Assembly: GCA_029861675.1 (NCBI GenBank) | Contig: JAOTYV010000121.1 | Span: forward strand, 1-12,468 | Direction: 5' to 3' | DNA length: 12,468 nucleotides | Source of the DNA: Alphaproteobacteria bacterium | GTDB lineage: Bacteria; Pseudomonadota; Alphaproteobacteria; UBA8366 | In this document: positions 669-12,370 of the stretch, one piece after another | Position numbering within the stretch: position 1 is the first letter of the stretch | Layout: each line of letters starts with the position of its first letter | Program-made: the position numbers and the translations under genes | The notes under the pieces: generated by a model | Databases searched by the model: none | Told to the model about the DNA's origin: nothing | Seen by the model: only the letters and a program-made list of their open reading frames with translations

Positions 669-742
669 TTGGTCTGTTACGCACGATAACTTGTTCTTTT
701 ATGGACTTTACGGCACGGATACCTATCTATGTGCCGTGGCCC

Positions 743-748
743 GGAGAA
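743..748 (+). promoter_or_regulatory. Ribosome binding site deciding the GTG start of the AsmA-family gene
   Basis: GGAGAA lies just upstream of GTG 755, with 8 bases between GGAG and the start codon. The upstream ATG at 701 would add 18 residues (MDFTARIPIY...) ahead of the membrane anchor and has no comparable site, so GTG 755 is preferred. Confidence 0.6.
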
Positions 749-754
749 ACGTTC

Positions 755-3700
755 GTGAAAAAGCTTCTAATTTCTGTTGCCGGCGTTCTCGTGCTCTTGT
801 TCGCGGTGCTTCTGATCGTTCCGAGTTTCATCGATTGGAATGCGCGCAAGCAGGAGATTACGGCTGCGGTTCGAGAGGCTACTGGCCGCAATTTGACGAT
901 TCTTGGCAATATCGACGTCACAATTCTTCCGAATCCCGCCATCCGCGTCGCCGATGTACGGTTCGCCAACATTAAAGGTGCGGCCGCGCCGGACATGATC
1001 CGGGTGCAGGAAGCGCGCGTGAGCGTCGCCCTCGGCCCATTGTTCGAAGGCCGTCTGGCCGCCGTTGTGGGGCTCGTCAAACCGGTGGTTCATCTCGAAA
1101 AACTTAGGAACGGCGATGCGAGCTGGAATTTCAGGACCGCCGGCTCCGACGCGCCGGCTCCGACCGCCGATATCGGATCGTCGGGATCTTCCATTGACTT
1201 GAAGCTGGATCGGTTCGAAATCATCGACGGAACGGTCACCTATTACGATGCTGGCGAAGGCAGCGTTCGTCGGCTGGACCGGCTCAATTCCACCATATCC
1301 TTCGATTCTCTTTCCGGGCCATTCAAGGCCGATGGGGTCGCCCTGATTGGCGACATGCCGCTGACGCTGCAACTGTCCACCGGCCGGTTGCGGCCGAAGG
1401 CGCCGCTGCCGCTCTCCGCCATGGTGACGGGACCGGATGAAAACACGGTGTTGCGGCTACAGGGTAGTGTCACTGCGCCGATCGGCGACGGATCGTTTGT
1501 CGGAGAGATGCGTCTCGATTCCGAAAATTTCGCGACCTTCCTCCAATCCTTGAAGGTGCGTGCTATTCCGGCGGCCCTGTCCCGGCCATTCGCCGCGAAG
1601 ACCGAGATTACGGCATCGAAGCAAGGGATTGGGCTCAACACCATGGAGCTTTCCTTGGGCGACGTGCGGGCGACCGGTACGGTGACGCTGGAATACGATA
1701 AGAAGCCGCGCCTGACGGCCAATTTGCGCAGTACCAATTTGAACGTCGACACATTGCTTGCCGAGAAGGGGCGCCTGGGCGGTAAAGCGGGCGCAGGGTC
1801 CGACCGCCCGGCGTCCGATCCTGCCGGCAAATCCGAGCGCGCGGCGAATGGCGGATCGGCCGGAACGGGATTTGCTTTGCCCGAAGGGCTCGAGGCTGCG
1901 GTTCAACTGGCCGCCGATGTAGTGCAATACCGGGGCGGCGTCATCCGGCGGGCGGCGATGCGGGCGCGTTTAAAGGATGGGCGCATTTCGATCGAAGAAA
2001 CCGGCGCGATTCTCCCGGGCAACACCTGGGTCGAGGCGAAGGGGGCGGTCACGGTCGCCCAAGGGATCCCGCAAATCGATCTGCGGGTGTTGGGACAGTC
2101 CGACAACCTGCGAGAAGCGTTGGGATGGCTTGATGTCGACGTTACCGCGGTGCCCGCGGACCGGCTGCGAAGGTTCAAATTTTCGAGCACCGTCGCCGGC
2201 ACCCCGCGCGATTTGAGCGCGACGGATATCGACGTAACGCTCGATTCCAGCCGGATCACCGGCGGCTTGGTGCTTGCCTTTCGCGAACGGCCCGCCTTCG
2301 GCCTGCGGTTGGAAGTCGATCGATTTAGTCTCGATGGGTATTCACCGTCCCGGCGGGCGGGAATAGGGCAACGGCGCGCGCTCACGGGGAATTCAGACGC
2401 TGCCACGGCGCGGCGCGCTCCAGCGCCGGGTCCAGGGGGCGCATTGTCGCCGATTTTGCAGCATCTGAAATCTTTCGACGCCAATATTGAAGCGACGGTC
2501 CAACGTCTGGTGGTCGCCAAAACCACGGCGAAAAACTTTAAAATCGACATCAAGATCGCCAATGGCGCGGTCGAACTCCGAAAGGCTTCGGTCACGGACT
2601 ATGCCGGGCTGCAGGGGGTGGTGTCGGGGAAGTTGGCCGGAAAGCCGACCAATCCTGAGTTTTCGGCGGATTACAGCGTAAAACTCCAAGATCGTGCCCG
2701 GTTTGTGCGCTTTCTCGACAAACCCGCCATTTTGCGCGATGGGCGGTTGTCTGGCTTGTCGGTCAGCGGCACGGTCAGTGGCACGCTCGACCGTTTGAAG
2801 GTGGCAACCAAACTGACGGGAATGGATGGCCGGATCGACCTGCGCGGGTCGATCCGCAGTGCTCTGCTCGATCCAACGGCCAATCTGGCGGTGACCATCA
2901 AGTTTCCCGAGTTGACCAACGTCGTTCAAATAGCCGCAAGAGACTACACGCCGGCGGCGGGCAAACTTGGTGCGGTGGATCTATCTTTTCAAGCCGAGGG
3001 CACGCCGACATACATCAAGTTAAGTGACATTTCGGGTTCCACTGGACCCGTTAGCCTGCGCGGCAATGCGGATATCGAGTTGAGCGGACCCCGGCCCAAA
3101 CTTCGGTTGAGCCTTAGCACGAGCGAGGTTCTGCTCGACCTCTTCTTTCCGCCGGAGCGCAAGCGGCGATCAGCGGCGCCGGCCCGGCATCGCATTATTC
3201 CGGCCGCGGCCATTGCTGGAAGCGGCGCGCCGGCGGCCAAATCATGGTCGAGAACACCGCTCGATTTGAGCGTGCTGCACGCCCTCGATGCGGATATCAC
3301 CCTGGCGATGGCCGCGCTGACGAAGGGTCTCTACCGCCTGAAAAATTCGCAAATGCAGGCGCAGATCGAGGCTGGGAAACTGTCGATCGACAAGTTTGCC
3401 GCCGCATTTTCGACCGGAACCGTGAGCGCCAGCGGGTCGCTTCAAGCCGGCGTGAATCAAGTAGAATTATCGTTGCGCGCGACCGCGAAGGAAGTCGATA
3501 TCGCCGATCTCATTCATGCGCTGCGGGATTATAAATTACGCATTGGGCCGGTCCGGCTCGGCGCGCGCATGCGGGGGCCGGTGTCCGCGAGCATGACGCT
3601 GACGTCGCGCGGCGCTAGCGAGCGCGACCTTGTGGCCGGCTTACGCGGGGTGGCGAAAATCGTCGGCCAGCCGCAAACGCAATTCACAGGCGCCGCGAAG

Positions 3701-4234
3701 CGGGCGAGCGCGATTACCGGATTGGCTGGGGCGATCCTCGGCAACAGGCGCAACGGCCTTGGCAAGGCCGGTGATTTGACCCGGGCGACCGGCCTGCTCG
3801 TGGCGGCGTTCGAGGGCGCATCCACCTTGAATGGCGATATCGACATTCAGGACGGGATCATTTCAACGCGCAATCTGGTGCTGGTCGGCCGCGGTGGCCG
3901 TGCCCTCACGTCAGGAACCGCGCATCTGAGCAATTGGAAGCTCGAATCGGCCACCGATGTTACCTTGGGGCAGGATAAGGAACCGTTCATCATCGCGCAG
4001 ATGACCGGACCGCTGGACGATCCCTATGTCCGGAAAATCAGCGGCAGCTTGATTTCCGGCGGCGCGCCGGCGGCAAAGACCCGCCAGCAGCCGGCCAAGA
4101 AAATCGCGCCGGATCCGCGCGGTTCGAACGCGCCGCCAAACCGACAGCCGCAAGCGCCCGGCGCGCCAGCACCGGCAAAAAAACTAAATCCTGAAGAACT
4201 CCTGCGTCAGTTATTGCAGGGCGCTGGGCGATAG
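755..4234 (+). CDS. AsmA family protein, large envelope protein with N-terminal membrane anchor
   Basis: This 1159-residue protein starts at GTG with MKKLLISVAGVLVLLFAVLL, one hydrophobic anchor (about residues 3-24) preceded by two lysines. The AsmA signature follows: FIDWN, an amphipathic segment, TGRNLTILGNIDV and an NPAIRVADVRFAN strand. Long stretches of alternating beta strands follow. An AsmA-like C-terminal module covers about residues 915-1095 (DIADLIHALRDY, LNGDIDIQDGIISTRNL, MTGPLDDPYVRKISG). The end is a Pro/Ala/Lys-rich linker (about 1105-1143) and a short helical tail, NPEELLRQLLQGAGR. AsmA-family proteins sit in the inner membrane, project into the periplasm, and are thought to support phospholipid transport to the outer membrane or outer membrane assembly. 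Lipid bridging is known for relatives such as TamB and YhdP and is inferred here. The 3' end overlaps the convergent ribbon-helix-helix gene by 24 bases. The family is certain; the exact role is not. Confidence 0.9.
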   Translation: MKKLLISVAGVLVLLFAVLLIVPSFIDWNARKQEITAAVREATGRNLTILGNIDVTILPNPAIRVADVRFANIKGAAAPDMIRVQEARVSVALGPLFEGRLAAVVGLVKPVVHLEKLRNGDASWNFRTAGSDAPAPTADIGSSGSSIDLKLDRFEIIDGTVTYYDAGEGSVRRLDRLNSTISFDSLSGPFKADGVALIGDMPLTLQLSTGRLRPKAPLPLSAMVTGPDENTVLRLQGSVTAPIGDGSFVGEMRLDSENFATFLQSLKVRAIPAALSRPFAAKTEITASKQGIGLNTMELSLGDVRATGTVTLEYDKKPRLTANLRSTNLNVDTLLAEKGRLGGKAGAGSDRPASDPAGKSERAANGGSAGTGFALPEGLEAAVQLAADVVQYRGGVIRRAAMRARLKDGRISIEETGAILPGNTWVEAKGAVTVAQGIPQIDLRVLGQSDNLREALGWLDVDVTAVPADRLRRFKFSSTVAGTPRDLSATDIDVTLDSSRITGGLVLAFRERPAFGLRLEVDRFSLDGYSPSRRAGIGQRRALTGNSDAATARRAPAPGPGGALSPILQHLKSFDANIEATVQRLVVAKTTAKNFKIDIKIANGAVELRKASVTDYAGLQGVVSGKLAGKPTNPEFSADYSVKLQDRARFVRFLDKPAILRDGRLSGLSVSGTVSGTLDRLKVATKLTGMDGRIDLRGSIRSALLDPTANLAVTIKFPELTNVVQIAARDYTPAAGKLGAVDLSFQAEGTPTYIKLSDISGSTGPVSLRGNADIELSGPRPKLRLSLSTSEVLLDLFFPPERKRRSAAPARHRIIPAAAIAGSGAPAAKSWSRTPLDLSVLHALDADITLAMAALTKGLYRLKNSQMQAQIEAGKLSIDKFAAAFSTGTVSASGSLQAGVNQVELSLRATAKEVDIADLIHALRDYKLRIGPVRLGARMRGPVSASMTLTSRGASERDLVAGLRGVAKIVGQPQTQFTGAAKRASAITGLAGAILGNRRNGLGKAGDLTRATGLLVAAFEGASTLNGDIDIQDGIISTRNLVLVGRGGRALTSGTAHLSNWKLESATDVTLGQDKEPFIIAQMTGPLDDPYVRKISGSLISGGAPAAKTRQQPAKKIAPDPRGSNAPPNRQPQAPGAPAPAKKLNPEELLRQLLQGAGR

Positions 4235-4510
4235 ATCGGGCATGTCCCCATCGGCCGGTGACTTGACGGCCTGTGCATGGAGCAGGACATACACCCGGAT
4301 CGCGCTGGATAGGTTGCCATCGCGGTCGCGATCGATATCCGTCACCAGCTGATTGACGGTCTGGCTCCTGCCCGCCGCGATCTTCTTGAGTTCGACCCAA
4401 AACACGTTTTCAAGCGACACGCTTGTCCTATGGCCGGCGATGACGACGGATCGCTTCTTCATCGCGCCGGGTGCGGCGTTTGTCCTGGGGGCTTTGTCTG
4501 GAGACTCCAT
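4211..4510 (-). CDS. Ribbon-helix-helix domain protein (RHH_4-like)
   Basis: This is a small protein of 99 residues. The core KKRSVVIAGHRTSVSLENVFWVELKKIA (residues 18-45), followed by TVNQLVTDIDRDR and NLSSAIRVYVLLHA (to about residue 82), matches the ribbon-helix-helix family common in Alphaproteobacteria: one beta strand (RTSVSLE) and two helices, with NLSSAIRVYV as the second. RHH proteins bind DNA as dimers through the strand, so this is probably a small transcription factor with unknown targets. The ATG at 4510 was chosen, with a weak GGA 6 bases upstream. A TTG at 4573 gives a longer, less likely form, and ATG 4462 would give only the domain. The disordered N-terminus (MESPDKAPRTNAAPG) and acidic C-terminus flank the domain. 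From memory, homologues often lie near fumC and sspB in other alphaproteobacteria, and both are in this window, though not adjacent to it. Confidence 0.8.
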   Translation of the reverse strand: MESPDKAPRTNAAPGAMKKRSVVIAGHRTSVSLENVFWVELKKIAAGRSQTVNQLVTDIDRDRDGNLSSAIRVYVLLHAQAVKSPADGDMPDLSPSALQ

Positions 4511-4647
4511 TGAATTCCGAATGTTATGACGCTCCGCGGGCAAGTCCATCAACTGTCCATCCACATAATCCAATGGGCATCTGTATACCGGTTAAGGTGG
4601 GCCTAAAACACGACTCTGGCAATACGGACTCACAGATTGTTGAAGCG

Positions 4648-5280
4648 CTATTGGCAGGAATTTCGGCCTAAATCGTAAGAAAACTGCGCAATTCGCGCGA
4701 TGGCGTCCCGGTAGTTCTGTTCCGTCGATGGACCTGATCGGCGGCGCGGCTTAAGGCTATGATCGCCATCCGGCAACCAATGGACGGCAATCTGCCCGGA
4801 TAGATGGTATCCTGATACTTCGCTGGCGTTCCCGAGCGGATCCCGTTCGCCCTGGCAGATCAGCGCAGGCTTCTTGAAATCGGCCAGGTGGGCGGTCCGC
4901 AACCGGTCGGGTTTTCCGGAGGGATGAAACGGATATCCCAGGCATACCAAACCGGCCACCGCGGGATGATCCGCGACCAAACTGGCGATGCGTCCACCAA
5001 GCGACTTGCCGCCGATAATCAATCCGGGCTGATCCAGCGTATCGATGACGGTGTTCCAATGCGCCCGCAACGCGGGTTCGCGGTCCGGCGGCCGGCGCCG
5101 GCCGGTGGCCTGCATGGTCGTCATATAGGGAAATTCGAACCGCACCACGCGCAATCCGCAGTCGGATAGGCCGTGGGCAAATGCCGCCATAAACGGCGAA
5201 TTCATGCCGGCGCCCGCGCCGTGCGCCAGAACAATCGTGCGCTCGGCGTCGGCTGGGCCGTCGATGAGAAATTCGGACAT
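4648..5280 (-). CDS. Alpha/beta hydrolase, KANL3/Tex30-like
   Basis: The 210-residue cytoplasmic protein shows a complete alpha/beta-hydrolase triad. The nucleophile is Ser93 in the elbow GGKSLGGR, the acid is Asp147 in GERDPLG, and the histidine is His174 in GDHSLKPRR. The early LAHGAGAGMNSPFM segment (18-31) supplies the oxyanion region and is typical of the compact KANL3/Tex30/dienelactone-hydrolase-like group found widely in bacteria. The substrate is unknown; esterase or thioesterase activity is plausible but unproven. ATG 5280 (MSEFLIDGP) is the chosen start because the family begins a few residues before the first strand. The in-frame start at 5343 adds 21 residues with no family character. 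The gene lies 137 bases upstream (in its own direction) of the RHH gene and is divergent from the CheW-globin gene, with a shared 151-base region between them. Confidence 0.85.
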   Translation of the reverse strand: MSEFLIDGPADAERTIVLAHGAGAGMNSPFMAAFAHGLSDCGLRVVRFEFPYMTTMQATGRRRPPDREPALRAHWNTVIDTLDQPGLIIGGKSLGGRIASLVADHPAVAGLVCLGYPFHPSGKPDRLRTAHLADFKKPALICQGERDPLGNASEVSGYHLSGQIAVHWLPDGDHSLKPRRRSGPSTEQNYRDAIARIAQFSYDLGRNSCQ

Positions 5281-5431
5281 AGCGCGCCCCGCCCAAGGCG
5301 TGAAAATTCGATCAGGTTGTTGCGTATCGGGCGCCGGGCACACTGTAAAGGCCTCGTTAACTCCGTAGCCATAAATTCAAGGAGCCGGCGCATCGGGTTG
5401 TGGGCCGCGTTGCCGGGGATGGGGATATGGA

Positions 5432-6568
5432 ATGAGCGAGCAGATCGTCGCGGCCGGGACCGCCATGATCGACGGCGATACGGATCAATTCGTCATGATG
5501 CAGGTCGGCAACCAAGACATCGCCTTCGCTATTCAAGATGTCAGGGATGCGGTCGAGCCCCATGCGATCACGCCGATTCCGCTGGCGCCTTCCGCAATTG
5601 CCGGCGTGATGAACCTGCGCGGACGCATTGTTACGGTGATCGACCTGCGCCGGATACTCGGCGGAGAAGACGATGGCGGTGAAAATGGCCGGGAGTATTC
5701 CCATATGACCGGCATCACCGTAGACCGTCCGGAAGGCCCCTTTACGCTGCTGGTCGATTCCGTCAGTGAGGTTCGTCGGATTGAGCGAAGCCTGCTGGAA
5801 GCGCCCCCCGTCACACTGGACCCGGCATTGAAGCGCTTATGCATGGGCGTTTTTCAGTTGCCCGGGCGATTGGTCGTCCTGCTGGATGTGGATCGCATTC
5901 TTGAGCCGGAGACGATCCTGGCGACGCCGACAATTCCTTTCCAGCCGCGCCGGAAGGCGCCGATGATCGAGGATCGCCAACGGAATCGGGTGGCGGTTAT
6001 TGAGCCGCCGGGCGCACCGGCCATTGCCGAGCTGGAGCCGTACGAAGTGCCGCTCCCGCCGGCCCGCGCGGCTGAAGACGTGCTTAATCCAGCAATCGCG
6101 ATCGCCCATCGGACGACCGGCGGATGGAATGAAAATCCGAAGGTTGGTGCGCCGGCCATTTCCGACGTATCGAAAAGTATCACATCGGCGCCGCCGCAAC
6201 GCGCTGCGCTTCCGATCCTAGACGGTATTGGCGGGAAAGCGGCCCTGAGCAAGCTCGTCATCGCGGTATATGAAGAAATTCTCGGCGACCCATTGCTCGC
6301 CGACTTGTTCGTCGGGGCGGACATGCCGATGCAGCGCGAACGCATGGTCACCGCGCTCGAGAACCTTTTATCGACCTCGGGATCGAACTTCGCGAGCGCC
6401 GCGATCGGCTTCGATTGGCTGGTGCCCGAAAAAGTGATGGAAGACGAGCATTTCAACCTGTGCCTTGGCCATTTCGAGCGGGTCTTGGGCCGTCTTGCGG
6501 TCGAGAAGACGCTCGCCGAGCGATTCCTCACCGCGATCGAATGGTGCCGTGAAGGGGTCGTCGATTAG
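5432..6568 (+). CDS. CheW-like domain fused to a truncated-haemoglobin-like domain
   Basis: The 378-residue protein has two recognisable parts. Residues about 17-158 are a CheW fold: QFVMMQVGNQDIAFAIQDVRD, then the typical IAGVMNLRGRIVTVIDLRRILG core (56-77), LLVDSVSEVRRI (106-117) and LPGRLVVLLDVDRIL (143-157). Residues 159-260 are a Pro/Ala-rich, probably disordered linker. Residues about 262-377 resemble a group-1 truncated haemoglobin: IGGKAAL at the start, Y280 at B10, LFVGADM with F293 at CD1, then DEHFNLCLGHFERVL (338-352) matching the G helix. No histidine occurs between 227 and 339, so the F8 haem ligand is missing. CheW normally couples chemoreceptors to CheA; globins sense or bind O2 or NO. 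No other che genes are in the window. ATG 5432 is the only in-frame start after the stop at 5372-5374, and a purine-rich GGGGATATGGA precedes it. CheW identity is firm, globin homology likely, function unknown. Confidence 0.85.
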   Translation: MSEQIVAAGTAMIDGDTDQFVMMQVGNQDIAFAIQDVRDAVEPHAITPIPLAPSAIAGVMNLRGRIVTVIDLRRILGGEDDGGENGREYSHMTGITVDRPEGPFTLLVDSVSEVRRIERSLLEAPPVTLDPALKRLCMGVFQLPGRLVVLLDVDRILEPETILATPTIPFQPRRKAPMIEDRQRNRVAVIEPPGAPAIAELEPYEVPLPPARAAEDVLNPAIAIAHRTTGGWNENPKVGAPAISDVSKSITSAPPQRAALPILDGIGGKAALSKLVIAVYEEILGDPLLADLFVGADMPMQRERMVTALENLLSTSGSNFASAAIGFDWLVPEKVMEDEHFNLCLGHFERVLGRLAVEKTLAERFLTAIEWCREGVVD

Positions 6569-6584
6569 ACCCGGCCGGTCGGGT
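6569..6584. terminator. Possible weak bidirectional hairpin between convergent genes
   Basis: ACCCG and CGGGT can pair around a 6-base loop in the 23-base gap between the CheW-globin stop and the fumC stop. No T-run follows on either strand, so intrinsic termination is doubtful. It is listed because nothing else could separate these convergent genes. Confidence 0.2.
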
Positions 6585-6591
6585 GATTGGG

Positions 6592-7995
6592 CTATTTAGC
6601 CGGTCCGGTCATGGCATCGGGATCGACCCAGGCATCGAATTGCTCTTCCGTCATCAATCCCAGATCCAACGCGGCTTGCTTGAGCGTGCCGCCCTCGGCG
6701 TAGGCCTTCTTGGCAATACGGGCGGCGTTGTCATAGCCGATATGCGGATTGAGCGCGGTCACCAGCATCAGGGAGTCCCGCACGAAGGCTTCCAGGCGCG
6801 CATGATCCGCCTCGATGCCGGCGACACAGTGAACCGCGAAACTGTCGCAGGCGTCGGCGATCAGACGGATCGATTGCAAAATATTGTGCACAATCACCGG
6901 TTTGAACACATTGAGTTCGAAATGACCGGTCGACCCGGCGACCGTGACGGTGACATGATTTCCCATCACCTGCGCACAGACCTGGGTGAGCGCCTCGCAC
7001 TGTGTCGGGTTGACCTTACCCGGCATGATGGATGAGCCCGGTTCGTTTTCCGGTAATTGCAGTTCGCCGAGACCGCAGCGCGGCCCGGAGCCGAGCAGGC
7101 GGATATCATTGCCGATCTTCATCAATGACGCGGCCAGGGTGTTGAGCACGCCCGACAATTCGACCAGGGCATCATGGGCGGCGAGCGCCTCGAATTTGTT
7201 TTTTGCAGGGACGAAGCGAAGTCCGGTGAGCGATGCGACCTCATGGGAAAACGCGGCATCGAATCCGCGCGGCGCGTTGAGCCCGGTGCCGACCGCGGTG
7301 CCGCCCTGGGCGAGTTGGTAGAGGTTGGGCAGCGCGGTCCGGACCCTTTCGAGCCCCTTGGCGATTTGCGCGGCATAGCCGGAAAATTCCTGGCCGAGGG
7401 TGAGCGGCGTGGCGTCCTGCATATGGGTGCGGCCGATCTTGACGATCTTCGCAAAGGCGGCCGATTTGTTTTCGAGCGCTCCGTGCAGGCGGGTCAATGC
7501 GGGGAACAGGCGATCGCGGATTTCCAGCGCCGCGGCGATATGCATCGCCGTTGGAAAGCTGTCGTTGGAGGACTGGCTGCGGTTGACGTGATCGTTCGGG
7601 TGAACCGGGTCCTTCGATCCGAGAACGCCGCCCAGCATCTCGATCGCCCTGTTGGCGATCACTTCGTTGAGATTCATGTTGGTCTGCGTGCCGGAGCCGG
7701 TCTGCCAAACCACGAGCGGGAAATGATCGGCCAATGCGCCGCCGATGATTTCGTCGCAGACCGCAACAATTGCCTGAACAATGTCCGCGTCCAGCGTGTC
7801 GAGCGCCCGGTTGGCCAGCGCCGCGGCTTTTTTCTGATATCCGAAAGCGCGGATCAACGGCTCGGGCATGCGTTCGGTGCCGATATTGAACAGTTCGATG
7901 CTGCGCTGGGTCTGGGCGCCCCAATACCGGTCGGCGGGGACTTCGATCGTGCCCATGCTGTCGCTTTCTATGCGAATTGCCGGTTTCTTGCTCAT
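6592..7995 (-). CDS. fumC: Fumarate hydratase class II (FumC)
   Basis: FumC interconverts fumarate and L-malate in the TCA cycle as an oxygen-stable, iron-free homotetramer in the cytoplasm. The 467-residue length equals that of E. coli FumC. The superfamily signature [11 protein letters not shown] (320-330) is intact and holds the serine of the mobile catalytic loop. Other kept segments are [14 protein letters not shown] (99-112), [14 protein letters not shown] (132-145) and [11 protein letters not shown] (188-198), in which His191 corresponds to the catalytic-site histidine. ATG 7995 ([12 protein letters not shown]) gives the canonical N-terminus; the 29-residue in-frame extension upstream lies inside the TfoX-like gene. 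The start overlaps that gene's stop as ATGA and no good ribosome site is seen, so expression probably depends on translational coupling. A class I fumarase lies two genes upstream on the same strand. Confidence 0.97.
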
Positions 7996-8363
7996 GTGGC
8001 TTTTTTTCGCCGCTTGCGCTTCGGCGGCGCGGCGGCTTTCGCGGCGTGCGCCACGGCAAATGCCTTCCCGGCCCAATCGCATAGCAGGTCGGGGTCCTCC
8101 AGCACGTCGGCGGGCACCTCATGATAGGACATGCTGACCGGTTTGGATTTACCGCTATAGGTGAAGGGTCCCATGCCGGCGGCTTCGTATTCGGCCCGAT
8201 TGGCATTGCCCGTCTTGAGGTAGAGTGTTTCGCTTGCAATCAGGCCGAACATTATGCCGTCGCGGAACAGGCCGCCGCCGCCGAACATGCTCCGGATCGT
8301 CACCGCGCCGAACGACCCCAGTTGATCGTGCAGATAATCGGTGAATTCGGGGCTAACGCTCAT
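7992..8363 (-). CDS. TfoX N-terminal domain protein
   Basis: The 123-residue protein covers a complete TfoX_N domain: [10 protein letters not shown], then the signature [19 protein letters not shown] (24-42), LYLKTG (47-52) and the [18 protein letters not shown] strand region (67-84), ending near residue 108. The C-terminal TfoX domain of the competence regulators Sxy/TfoX is absent. Stand-alone TfoX_N proteins are common in Alphaproteobacteria and their function is not established; a link to natural competence should not be assumed. The tail is strongly basic ([11 protein letters not shown]), which could contact nucleic acid. It lies between the two fumarase genes: 47 bases downstream of the class I gene and overlapping the fumC start by 4 bases, so it is almost certainly co-transcribed with fumC. 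A GAGA stretch upstream of ATG 8363 is a plausible weak ribosome site. Confidence 0.88.
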
Positions 8364-8410
8364 GACGAATTCTCAATGCATCATATGCAGAAGATCGACC
8401 GCGTGCGGCG

Positions 8411-10027
8411 TCACAGGTCGCGGAAGAAGTCATTTCCCTTGTCGTCGGTGACGATGAAGGCGGGGAAATTCTCCACCTCGATGCGCCAGATCGCCTCCAT
8501 GCCCAGGTCTTCGAATTCGATGCACTCCACTTTCTTGATGCAGTCGAGTGCGAGCCGGGCGGCGGGACCGCCGATCGACCCCAGGTAGAAGCCGCCGTGT
8601 TTTTGGCAGGATTGGCGGACCTGGTCGGAGCGGTTGCCCTTGGCCAGCATGATCATGGAGCCGCCGGCTTCCTGGAAGCGGTCGACGAATCCATCCATCC
8701 GCCCCGCCGTGGTCGGGCCGAACGAGCCCGAGGCATATCCTTTGGGCGTCTTGGCGGGGCCGGCATAATAAATTGGATGGTCCTTGAAATACTGCGGCAG
8801 GTCCTTGCCCGCATCGAGCTGCGCTTCCAGGCGGGCATGCGCCGAGTCGCGTGCGACGATGATCGTCCCGGTCAGCGACAGCTGCGTCTTGACCGGATAC
8901 TTCGTCAGCGTGCCGAGGATTTCCGACATCGGCCGGGAGAGGTCGATATCCACGACGTCGCCTTTGAGGTCGTCATCGGTGATGGGCGGCAGGTATTTCG
9001 CCGGATCGGTCTCGAGCTGCTCCAGGAACACGCCGTCCTTGGTGATCTTGCCTTTGATCTGGCGGTCCGCCGAGCATGAAACGCCGAGGCCGATCGGCAG
9101 ACTGGCGCCGTGCCGGGGCAGCCGGATGATGCGCACGTCGTGACAGAAATACTTGCCGCCGAACTGCGCGCCGATGCCCATGTTCTGCGTCAGCTTGTGC
9201 ACTTCCTGTTCCATCTCCACATCGCGGAACGCCTGACCATGGGCGCCGCCCTCGGTCGGTAGCGTGTCGTAGTACCGGCAGCTCGCGAGCTTGACCGTTT
9301 TGAGATTCATCTCGGCCGAGGTGCCGCCGATCACGATCGCCAGATGATAGGGCGGACAGGCCGCCGTGCCGAGCGTGCGGATCTTTTCGTCGAGGAAGGC
9401 GATCAACCGTTCCGGCGTCAGCGTCGACGGCGTCGCCTGGAACAGGAAGCTCTTGTTGGCGGAGCCGCCGCCCTTGGCGATGAACAGGAATTTGTATGAA
9501 TCTCCTTCATCCGCGTAGATATCGATCTGCGCCGGCAGGTTGTTGCGGGTGTTTATTTCTTCATACATGGATACGGCCGACACCTGGCTGTAGCGCAGGT
9601 TGCTTTCCGTATAGGTGCGCAGCACGGCGTCCGAGAGCACGGCTTCGTCGCTGCCGCCGGTCCAGACCATTTGGCCCTTCTTGCCCATGATGATCGCCGT
9701 GCCCGTGTCCTGGCACATCGGCAGGATGCCGCCGGCCGCGATATTGGCGTTCTTGAGCAGGTCGTAGGCGACGAACCGGTCGTTGTCGGACGCTTCGGGG
9801 TCGTCGAAAATCTTGGCGAGCTGTTGCAGGTGACCGGGCCGCAACAGGTGGCTGACATCACGGTAGGCTTCGGCGGCGAGCAGGCGGAGCGCTTCCGGCT
9901 CGATCTTCAGCATGTCGCGGCCTTCGAATTTTGCGACGCTGACATGCTTGTCGGTGAGTTGCCGGTAGGGCGTATCGTCCGCGCCGAGCGGAAACATCGG
10001 ATGAAATTCTGAGTTCTGCGCGCTCAT
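8411..10027 (-). CDS. fumA: Fumarate hydratase class I, [4Fe-4S] dehydratase
   Basis: This 538-residue enzyme is the single-chain class I fumarase, in which the alpha- and beta-type domains are joined in one chain. It converts fumarate to L-malate through an oxygen-labile [4Fe-4S] cluster. Three cysteines that would bind the cluster are visible: Cys105 in [11 protein letters not shown], Cys224 in [15 protein letters not shown] and Cys318 in [12 protein letters not shown]. These are the same residue numbers as in E. coli FumA. The beta-type domain includes [21 protein letters not shown] and the end [31 protein letters not shown]. The start ATG 10027 is supported by AGAGGA 8 bases upstream. The symbol follows E. 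coli usage; fumB-type paralogues cannot be told apart by sequence alone. It heads a likely transcript running into the TfoX-like gene and fumC. Some class I enzymes also act on other dicarboxylates such as mesaconate; this is not decidable here. Confidence 0.96.
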
Positions 10028-11822: not shown

Positions 11823-12314
11823 CTATTTGTTGCGGAACGTATCCAGGGCGACGACGTTGTCGTTGTCCTTGGCTTCGCCGGCATTGGCTTCCGTCGGGGC
11901 GTCGCTCGCGCCGTTTGCCGAGTCCTGCTCGACCGTGTCGTCGTTCTGGGCCGCGGTGTCGCCGGGCTGGAATTGCAGCGCAAAATTTACCGATGGATCG
12001 GCGAAGGCATTGACGGCGGCAAACGGGATCGTCAATTGCTGCGGCCGGTCGTTGAAGCTGAGGGTCACATTGAAAATATCTTCGGCGACGATCAACTCCC
12101 AGAATTGATATTGCAGGACGATGGTCATCTCGATGGGATATTTTTCGCGCAGTTCGTCCGGCAGCACGACATCCGGATGATCGGTCCGAAAGGTGATGTA
12201 CAGGTGGTGCGATCCGGGCAGGCCGTGTTCGGCGACATAGTTCAGGGCTTCCCGAACCACGTTTTTAAGCGCCCGCTCGACCAAACGATCGTATTGCAGC
12301 AAATCTTCGGTCAT
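11823..12314 (-). CDS. sspB: SspB-type ClpXP adaptor (alphaproteobacterial SspB)
   Basis: SspB binds ssrA-tagged proteins and hands them to ClpXP for degradation. The 163-residue protein has the expected three parts. The substrate-binding fold (1-118) includes LVERALKNVVREALNYVAEHGLPGSHHLYITFRT and a hydrophobic strand MTIVLQYQFWELIV. A flexible acidic linker rich in D, E, A and N covers about 119-152. The C-terminal tail NVVALDTFRNK should be the ClpX-binding peptide. ATG 12314 (MTEDLLQYDRLVERAL) is the canonical N-terminus; the upstream in-frame start at 12359 would add 15 residues without family character. The tmRNA gene that encodes the tag lies directly upstream on the same strand, so tag and adaptor are neighbours. 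Family assignment is firm. Confidence 0.93.
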   Translation of the reverse strand: MTEDLLQYDRLVERALKNVVREALNYVAEHGLPGSHHLYITFRTDHPDVVLPDELREKYPIEMTIVLQYQFWELIVAEDIFNVTLSFNDRPQQLTIPFAAVNAFADPSVNFALQFQPGDTAAQNDDTVEQDSANGASDAPTEANAGEAKDNDNVVALDTFRNK

Positions 12315-12370
12315 TTCACTGACATGGAGTGTACCACGGGGCGTCAGACCTACAACCAAGGCCTGAACTG

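Follow-up and report, generated by a model that had tools for sequence, protein, structure and literature searches.

A CheW adaptor carrying a truncated-haemoglobin fold at a conserved alphaproteobacterial locus

The window, by which we mean the whole stretch of 12,468 nucleotides analysed, carries a gene for a two-domain protein together with several genes that recur beside its relatives:

701..4234, plus strand: AsmA-family protein, conserved neighbour
4211..4573, minus strand: ribbon-helix-helix protein (RHH_4), conserved neighbour
4648..5343, minus strand: alpha/beta hydrolase (Abhydrolase_11), conserved neighbour
5432..6568, plus strand: CheW-globin fusion gene, 378 aa
5486..5905, plus strand: CheW domain, residues 19-158 (Pfam PF01584, 6.5e-28; PDB CheW chains, best 5.2e-14)
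5906..6193, plus strand: Pro/Ala-rich linker, residues 159-254 (37% mean identity in the clade)
6194..6565, plus strand: predicted group-1 truncated-haemoglobin fold, residues 255-378 (sequence and predicted structure)
6592..8082, minus strand: class II fumarase (fumC), common to the L004 and L007 loci
8411..10027, minus strand: class I fumarase, conserved neighbour
11823..12359, minus strand: SspB, conserved neighbour

The fusion gene is the sole gene on its strand at this point, diverging from the hydrolase gene across an 88-base gap and converging on fumC across a 23-base gap. A promoter scan detected no sigma-70-like promoter at 5250-6700, and two terminator-like sites were observed within the gene against 1.3 expected. 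The two fumarase genes, of class I and class II, are close neighbours (6592-10027) separated by a TfoX_N gene. Because the annotated fumC start overlaps this TfoX_N gene, the true start is probably further in.

The first-pass annotation had read the protein as a CheW adaptor joined to a truncated-globin-like domain, and this reading was upheld by Pfam PF01584, a globin fold model and homologues that carry both domains. The CheW half scored 97.5 bits with PF01584 (cut-off 23.5), and the profile search that the annotation had proposed also listed Bac_globin for the tail. At E ≤1 these were the only two families found in the protein (P0001); it lacks kinase domains and is thus not CheA, and MCPsignal was absent at the same threshold, which separates it from HemAT-type receptors. 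An NCBIfam scan returned one CheW model far under its cut-off and, for the C-terminal piece, a stray weak transporter match. The fold comparison proposed for residues 255-378 gave a 2-on-2 truncated-haemoglobin fold, predicted at high confidence; a non-globin fold was ruled out by comparing the structure model with known folds. Misassembly or a chance fusion, the other way in which the annotation could have failed, was ruled out by five homologues (64–71% identity) and by orthologues across the order, the proposed architecture survey having found a recognisable globin tail in 22 of 43 genomes.

The family profile matched in 33 of these 43 genomes, all from the order to which G008 belongs. Among 385 genomes sampled across the class, whole-model matches at E ≤1e-55 were found in only four, each belonging to the same order; scoring was limited to each genome's five best candidates, such that a further CheW could have escaped. 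One more genome of that sample gave a match over 7-273 with internal stops. Scanning genome contigs with a single sequence gave no confirmed match; an alignment-based scan did work, and its matches are to be read as a lower bound. The named members Hwanghaeella, Marivibrio and Aestuariispira are placed by NCBI in the Aestuariispiraceae, Rhodospirillales, and one source already annotates some relatives as 'chemotaxis signal transduction protein/truncated hemoglobin YjbI'. The entry CP051228.1 (L008 / L099) carries the title Mesoflavibacter sp., which looks wrong: over the tree columns its CheW domain does not differ from that of P0080, named Pacificispira.

At least one of the AsmA, RHH, hydrolase, fumarase, TfoX and SspB genes stands beside the family gene in 11 of 13 family loci (L001-L013, tail-less members included), the exceptions being L005 and the short L009. 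Of 67 other CheW loci L051 alone matches, through AsmA and SDR genes at 22–34% identity. Neighbours common to the family loci are thus nearly absent at other CheW loci, which indicates that the locus is orthologous across the family and is not a che operon.

CheA, receptors and other CheW proteins were seen in the genomes of relatives, not in the window's own genome. CheA was seen in 17 of the 22 genomes with a globin tail (as a CheW match in a long frame; partial in G039). In all seven genomes checked, six of those 17 plus the tail-less G010, CheA showed the Pfam order Hpt, dimerisation, HATPase, CheW and REC. In 12 of the 17, no CheW other than the globin-tailed protein was found outside CheA; further CheW proteins occur in G003, G012, G014, G016 and G039. 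Hwanghaeella grinnelliae and Aestuariispira insulae are among the relatives with additional CheW proteins. As genome completeness is not given, the description 'only CheW' is safest for G008, whose chromosome is a single 4.9-Mb contig. The annotation had supposed that the globin acts at the level of the adaptor, and these counts strengthen that placement. MCPs were present in all 12 genomes searched. The CheA operons that were read contain chpT-, cheY-, cheB- and cheR-like genes, with ctrA- and fliI-like genes nearby in some (mostly named by eye). In G004, the one set scanned with Pfam, this identified HPTransfase, a receiver, CheB, a receiver with Trans_reg_C and a FliI-type ATPase, and found no family in the piece taken for CheR. 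The partner CheA at the loci L081-L087 (G008, G004, G007, G001, G010, G003 and G006) is a hybrid that combines Hpt and the kinase core with one or two CheW-like domains and a receiver at its C-terminus; at some of the loci a ChpT-like gene lies beside it. These seven operons yielded no separate cheW.

Alignment of the window's globin domain placed the residues of the haem pocket as follows:

6269..6271, plus strand: Tyr280, position B10, kept
6308..6310, plus strand: Phe293, position CD1, kept
6332..6334, plus strand: Gln301, position E7, kept
6344..6346, plus strand: Met305, position E11 (Gln in the stand-alone truncated haemoglobins examined)
6410..6412, plus strand: Phe327, at F8, the proximal His position of haem globins; His lost

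A tyrosine at B10 and a phenylalanine at CD1 had been noticed in the first pass. The motif DEHF...GHF, which had been taken as a haem landmark, did not hold up as one: it marks the start of helix G, and the proximal position lies elsewhere. The SHRRLI segment of THB1, whose histidine we take to be the proximal one (the helix names are likewise assumed), aligns with IGFDWLVP of the window's protein and puts Phe327 at F8. In the six full-length members of the window's clade F8 is F, Y, V, V, F and F, never His, and Tyr B10 and Gln E7 are retained in the clade despite these three different replacements. That P0001 and P0002 match Bac_globin over a short stretch was considered as a sign against haem and dropped; P0008, with His, matches equally partially, and P0005, without it, nearly in full.

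Across the family, His is found at F8 in 57 of 102 distinct globin-tailed proteins compared, the window's included, and Tyr B10, Phe/Tyr CD1 and His F8 occur together in 51, which makes a haem-binding ancestor of the family probable. Poor alignment of P0038 and P0094 slightly inflates the non-His count. Stand-alone truncated haemoglobins, one from each of seven genomes and chosen as the best scorers with the family profile, had the F8 His and the pocket Y-F-Q-K-Q-H in 7/7. We mapped the F8 state on a tree of the CheW domain only, built from 139 proteins (130 distinct), with P0112, P0113 and P0117 left out and P0082 and L103_G014 without the trimming motif; tails were called globin-like above a cut of 9 bits on a custom HMM, chosen by us. 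Eight changes between His and non-His were counted, at least five of them forced. A repeat tree that dropped the unreliable rows P0038, P0094 and L109_G024 (scored tail-less, though a contig end cuts it) gave six changes, at least four of them forced by starred branches. Long branches meet in the repeat tree, that of the window's clade included, and the placement of this clade is therefore unsure. The repeated changes suggest that the fusion probably arose with a haem-binding globin and then lost its proximal ligand several times, a direction read from the alignment and tree.

Constraint on the domain was examined within the window's clade, where mean pairwise identity was 80% for the CheW domain, 73% for the globin and 37% for the linker (ungapped columns; 6 proteins, 15 pairs). 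The last 17 residues of the globin domain are nearly invariant among clade members. The globin-to-CheW divergence (log ratio) was 1.4 in this clade and 0.9–3.2 in four His-keeping clades, one of which is also fast, at 3.2. Two other non-His clades reached 3.8–3.9, and the fast globin evolution there fits relaxed constraint or decay rather than re-use. A separate lineage that lacks most pocket residues still gave a globin fold model (pLDDT 89.8), whose best PDB match was THB1 (8.4e-4, TM 0.62) with no other under 0.001; this model is less independent proof of a shared fold, because its alignment included relatives with intact pockets. In P0006 (280 aa), which is 91% identical over 66% of the query, the reading frame seems to shift in the linker just ahead of the globin, which could reflect a pseudogene or an error of assembly.

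We lean, by a little, towards the reading that the main CheW of these bacteria carries a haem-free pseudo-globin, derived from a truncated haemoglobin that once bound haem and kept as a binding module of the baseplate. Sequence and models back its CheW domain, predicted globin fold, conserved locus, loss of the F8 His in the clade and conservation of the domain. The gene would encode a working baseplate adaptor; orthology makes it probable that this is the flagellar chemotaxis array's main or only CheW. Its CheW half would enter the CheA/CheW rings, as expected from the family, and the presumably flexible linker would tether the domain of group-1 truncated-haemoglobin descent below or beside the baseplate, near CheA. 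The window's domain has probably lost normal haem binding. With the F8 His gone from the clade, it more likely binds another protein or a small apolar ligand, by which it could tune or position the array. In relatives with an intact pocket the tail may instead read O2, NO or redox state. A HemAT-like haem gas sensor is not supported for the window's copy, where F8 is Phe (F, Y or V in the clade), and stays plausible for the relatives that retain Tyr B10, Phe/Tyr CD1 and His F8. More tentatively, and with more doubt than confidence, the order's main or only CheW may have become a globin-coupled adaptor for O2, NO or redox, after which haem was dropped in several lineages, that of the window among them, and the globin re-used there as a haem-free sensor of a ligand or partner.

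Retention of Tyr B10, Phe CD1 and Gln E7 on the distal side would also suit a globin that still binds haem, with His340, His347 or a Cys near helix G, for example, as its proximal ligand, and that senses O2, NO or redox directly at the adaptor. His340 is present in 6/6 clade members, half of the globin-tailed proteins keep the full triad, and tyrosine, which P0002 carries at F8, can ligate haem iron in some other proteins. F8 itself varies among F, Y and V with no fixed substitute, however, and His340 persists in lineages whose pockets are gone (e.g. P0047 and P0068), so it looks structural; we regard haem binding of this kind as quite unlikely. The tail might otherwise be the remnant of a former haem sensor, now decaying and functionless, with only the CheW half still mattering. 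The repeated changes of the F8 His, the complete absence of the tail from one clade, the fast globins of two non-His lineages and the apparent frameshift ahead of the domain in the close relative P0006 speak for a relic. A globin conserved nearly as well as CheW and far better than the linker, a nearly invariant C-terminus and a fold predicted at high confidence speak against it, and we consider a relic unlikely in the window's clade.

Group-1 truncated haemoglobins can have NO dioxygenase activity, and the fused globin could have been, or could be, an NO- or O2-consuming enzyme moored at the array rather than a sensor. The fused copy of G037 shares all six pocket residues (YFQKQH) with the seven stand-alone proteins, and a stand-alone truncated haemoglobin scoring >50 bits occurs in 10/11 genomes whose fused copy has the F8 His vs 0/11 without it (Fisher 3.4e-5). 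This association is not significant once relatedness is counted, since the independent changes behind it number about three (sign test, p 0.5). The 50-bit line was moreover our own choice, and weaker globin matches of 21–31 bits exist in 6/11 non-His genomes and in G008. For the window's copy an enzymatic role could hold only if the domain binds haem, and we judge the enzyme reading improbable.

CheW is usually regarded as a passive coupler. If the sole CheW carries a haemoglobin-derived domain, every baseplate ring bears a possible cytoplasmic sensor. Under the more tentative reading of a globin-coupled CheW in this order, O2/NO or redox would be read in the cytoplasm on every array ring, and CheA would receive receptor-free input from a molecule that is both sensor and scaffold. 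What makes the fusion interesting is that it can stand as the sole CheW outside CheA and that loss of its haem ligand recurs. The fold and sequence family are those of the group-1 truncated haemoglobins (THB1, HbN, P. caudatum Hb), from which the window's copy differs in lacking the proximal His.

CheW proteins with fused domains are already known, namely CheV, CheWS and CheW-CZB (PMC12691637, PMC10653840). CheV likewise joins a CheW domain to one more domain, in its case a receiver (PMC12691637). The CheWS of Treponema denticola has a C-terminal CheR-like, SAM-binding domain and is described as a possible adaptor-level input bypassing receptors (PMC10653840); a classical CheW is also present there, whereas here the extra domain is a truncated globin and the protein is the only non-CheA CheW in most relatives with CheA. 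HemAT receptors also tie a globin to the chemotaxis pathway, through a sensor globin placed N-terminally to the signalling domain of a receptor (PMC13401364) instead of a C-terminal group-1 truncated globin on CheW, and the HemAT globin is reported to bind ethanol without haem (PMC7542364). RsbR, a non-haem globin of the stressosome, similarly places a globin-fold part on a large signalling assembly (PMC6614362), although its partner domain is STAS, its globin family is another (PMC6614362, PMC9237108) and a haem-binding form exists in V. vulnificus (PMC9237108). The proposed role of the globin module would resemble that of the non-haem RsbR globins and of SAM-binding CheWS. No published description of a CheW-globin fusion was recognised among the papers listed in the literature searched, which covered few subscription journals. 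A supplementary figure of PMC10653840 counts 30 unstudied CheW architectures, among which this one may be included; the main text contains no word starting with 'globin'.

The family offers a natural series at an orthologous locus, from canonical pockets, through pockets without the proximal His, to proteins that lack the domain altogether, so whether CheW itself can be a signal input becomes testable in cultured relatives. At the far end of the series one clade has the CheW half without any globin tail (24 tail-less rows in the repeat tree, L110-L116 and others), which implies that the tail is dispensable to the adaptor. In this clade a long acidic, Lys/Ala-rich tail replaces the globin, and in many members it bears a motif like WWxKxRGK; this tail may be a pole or membrane anchor.
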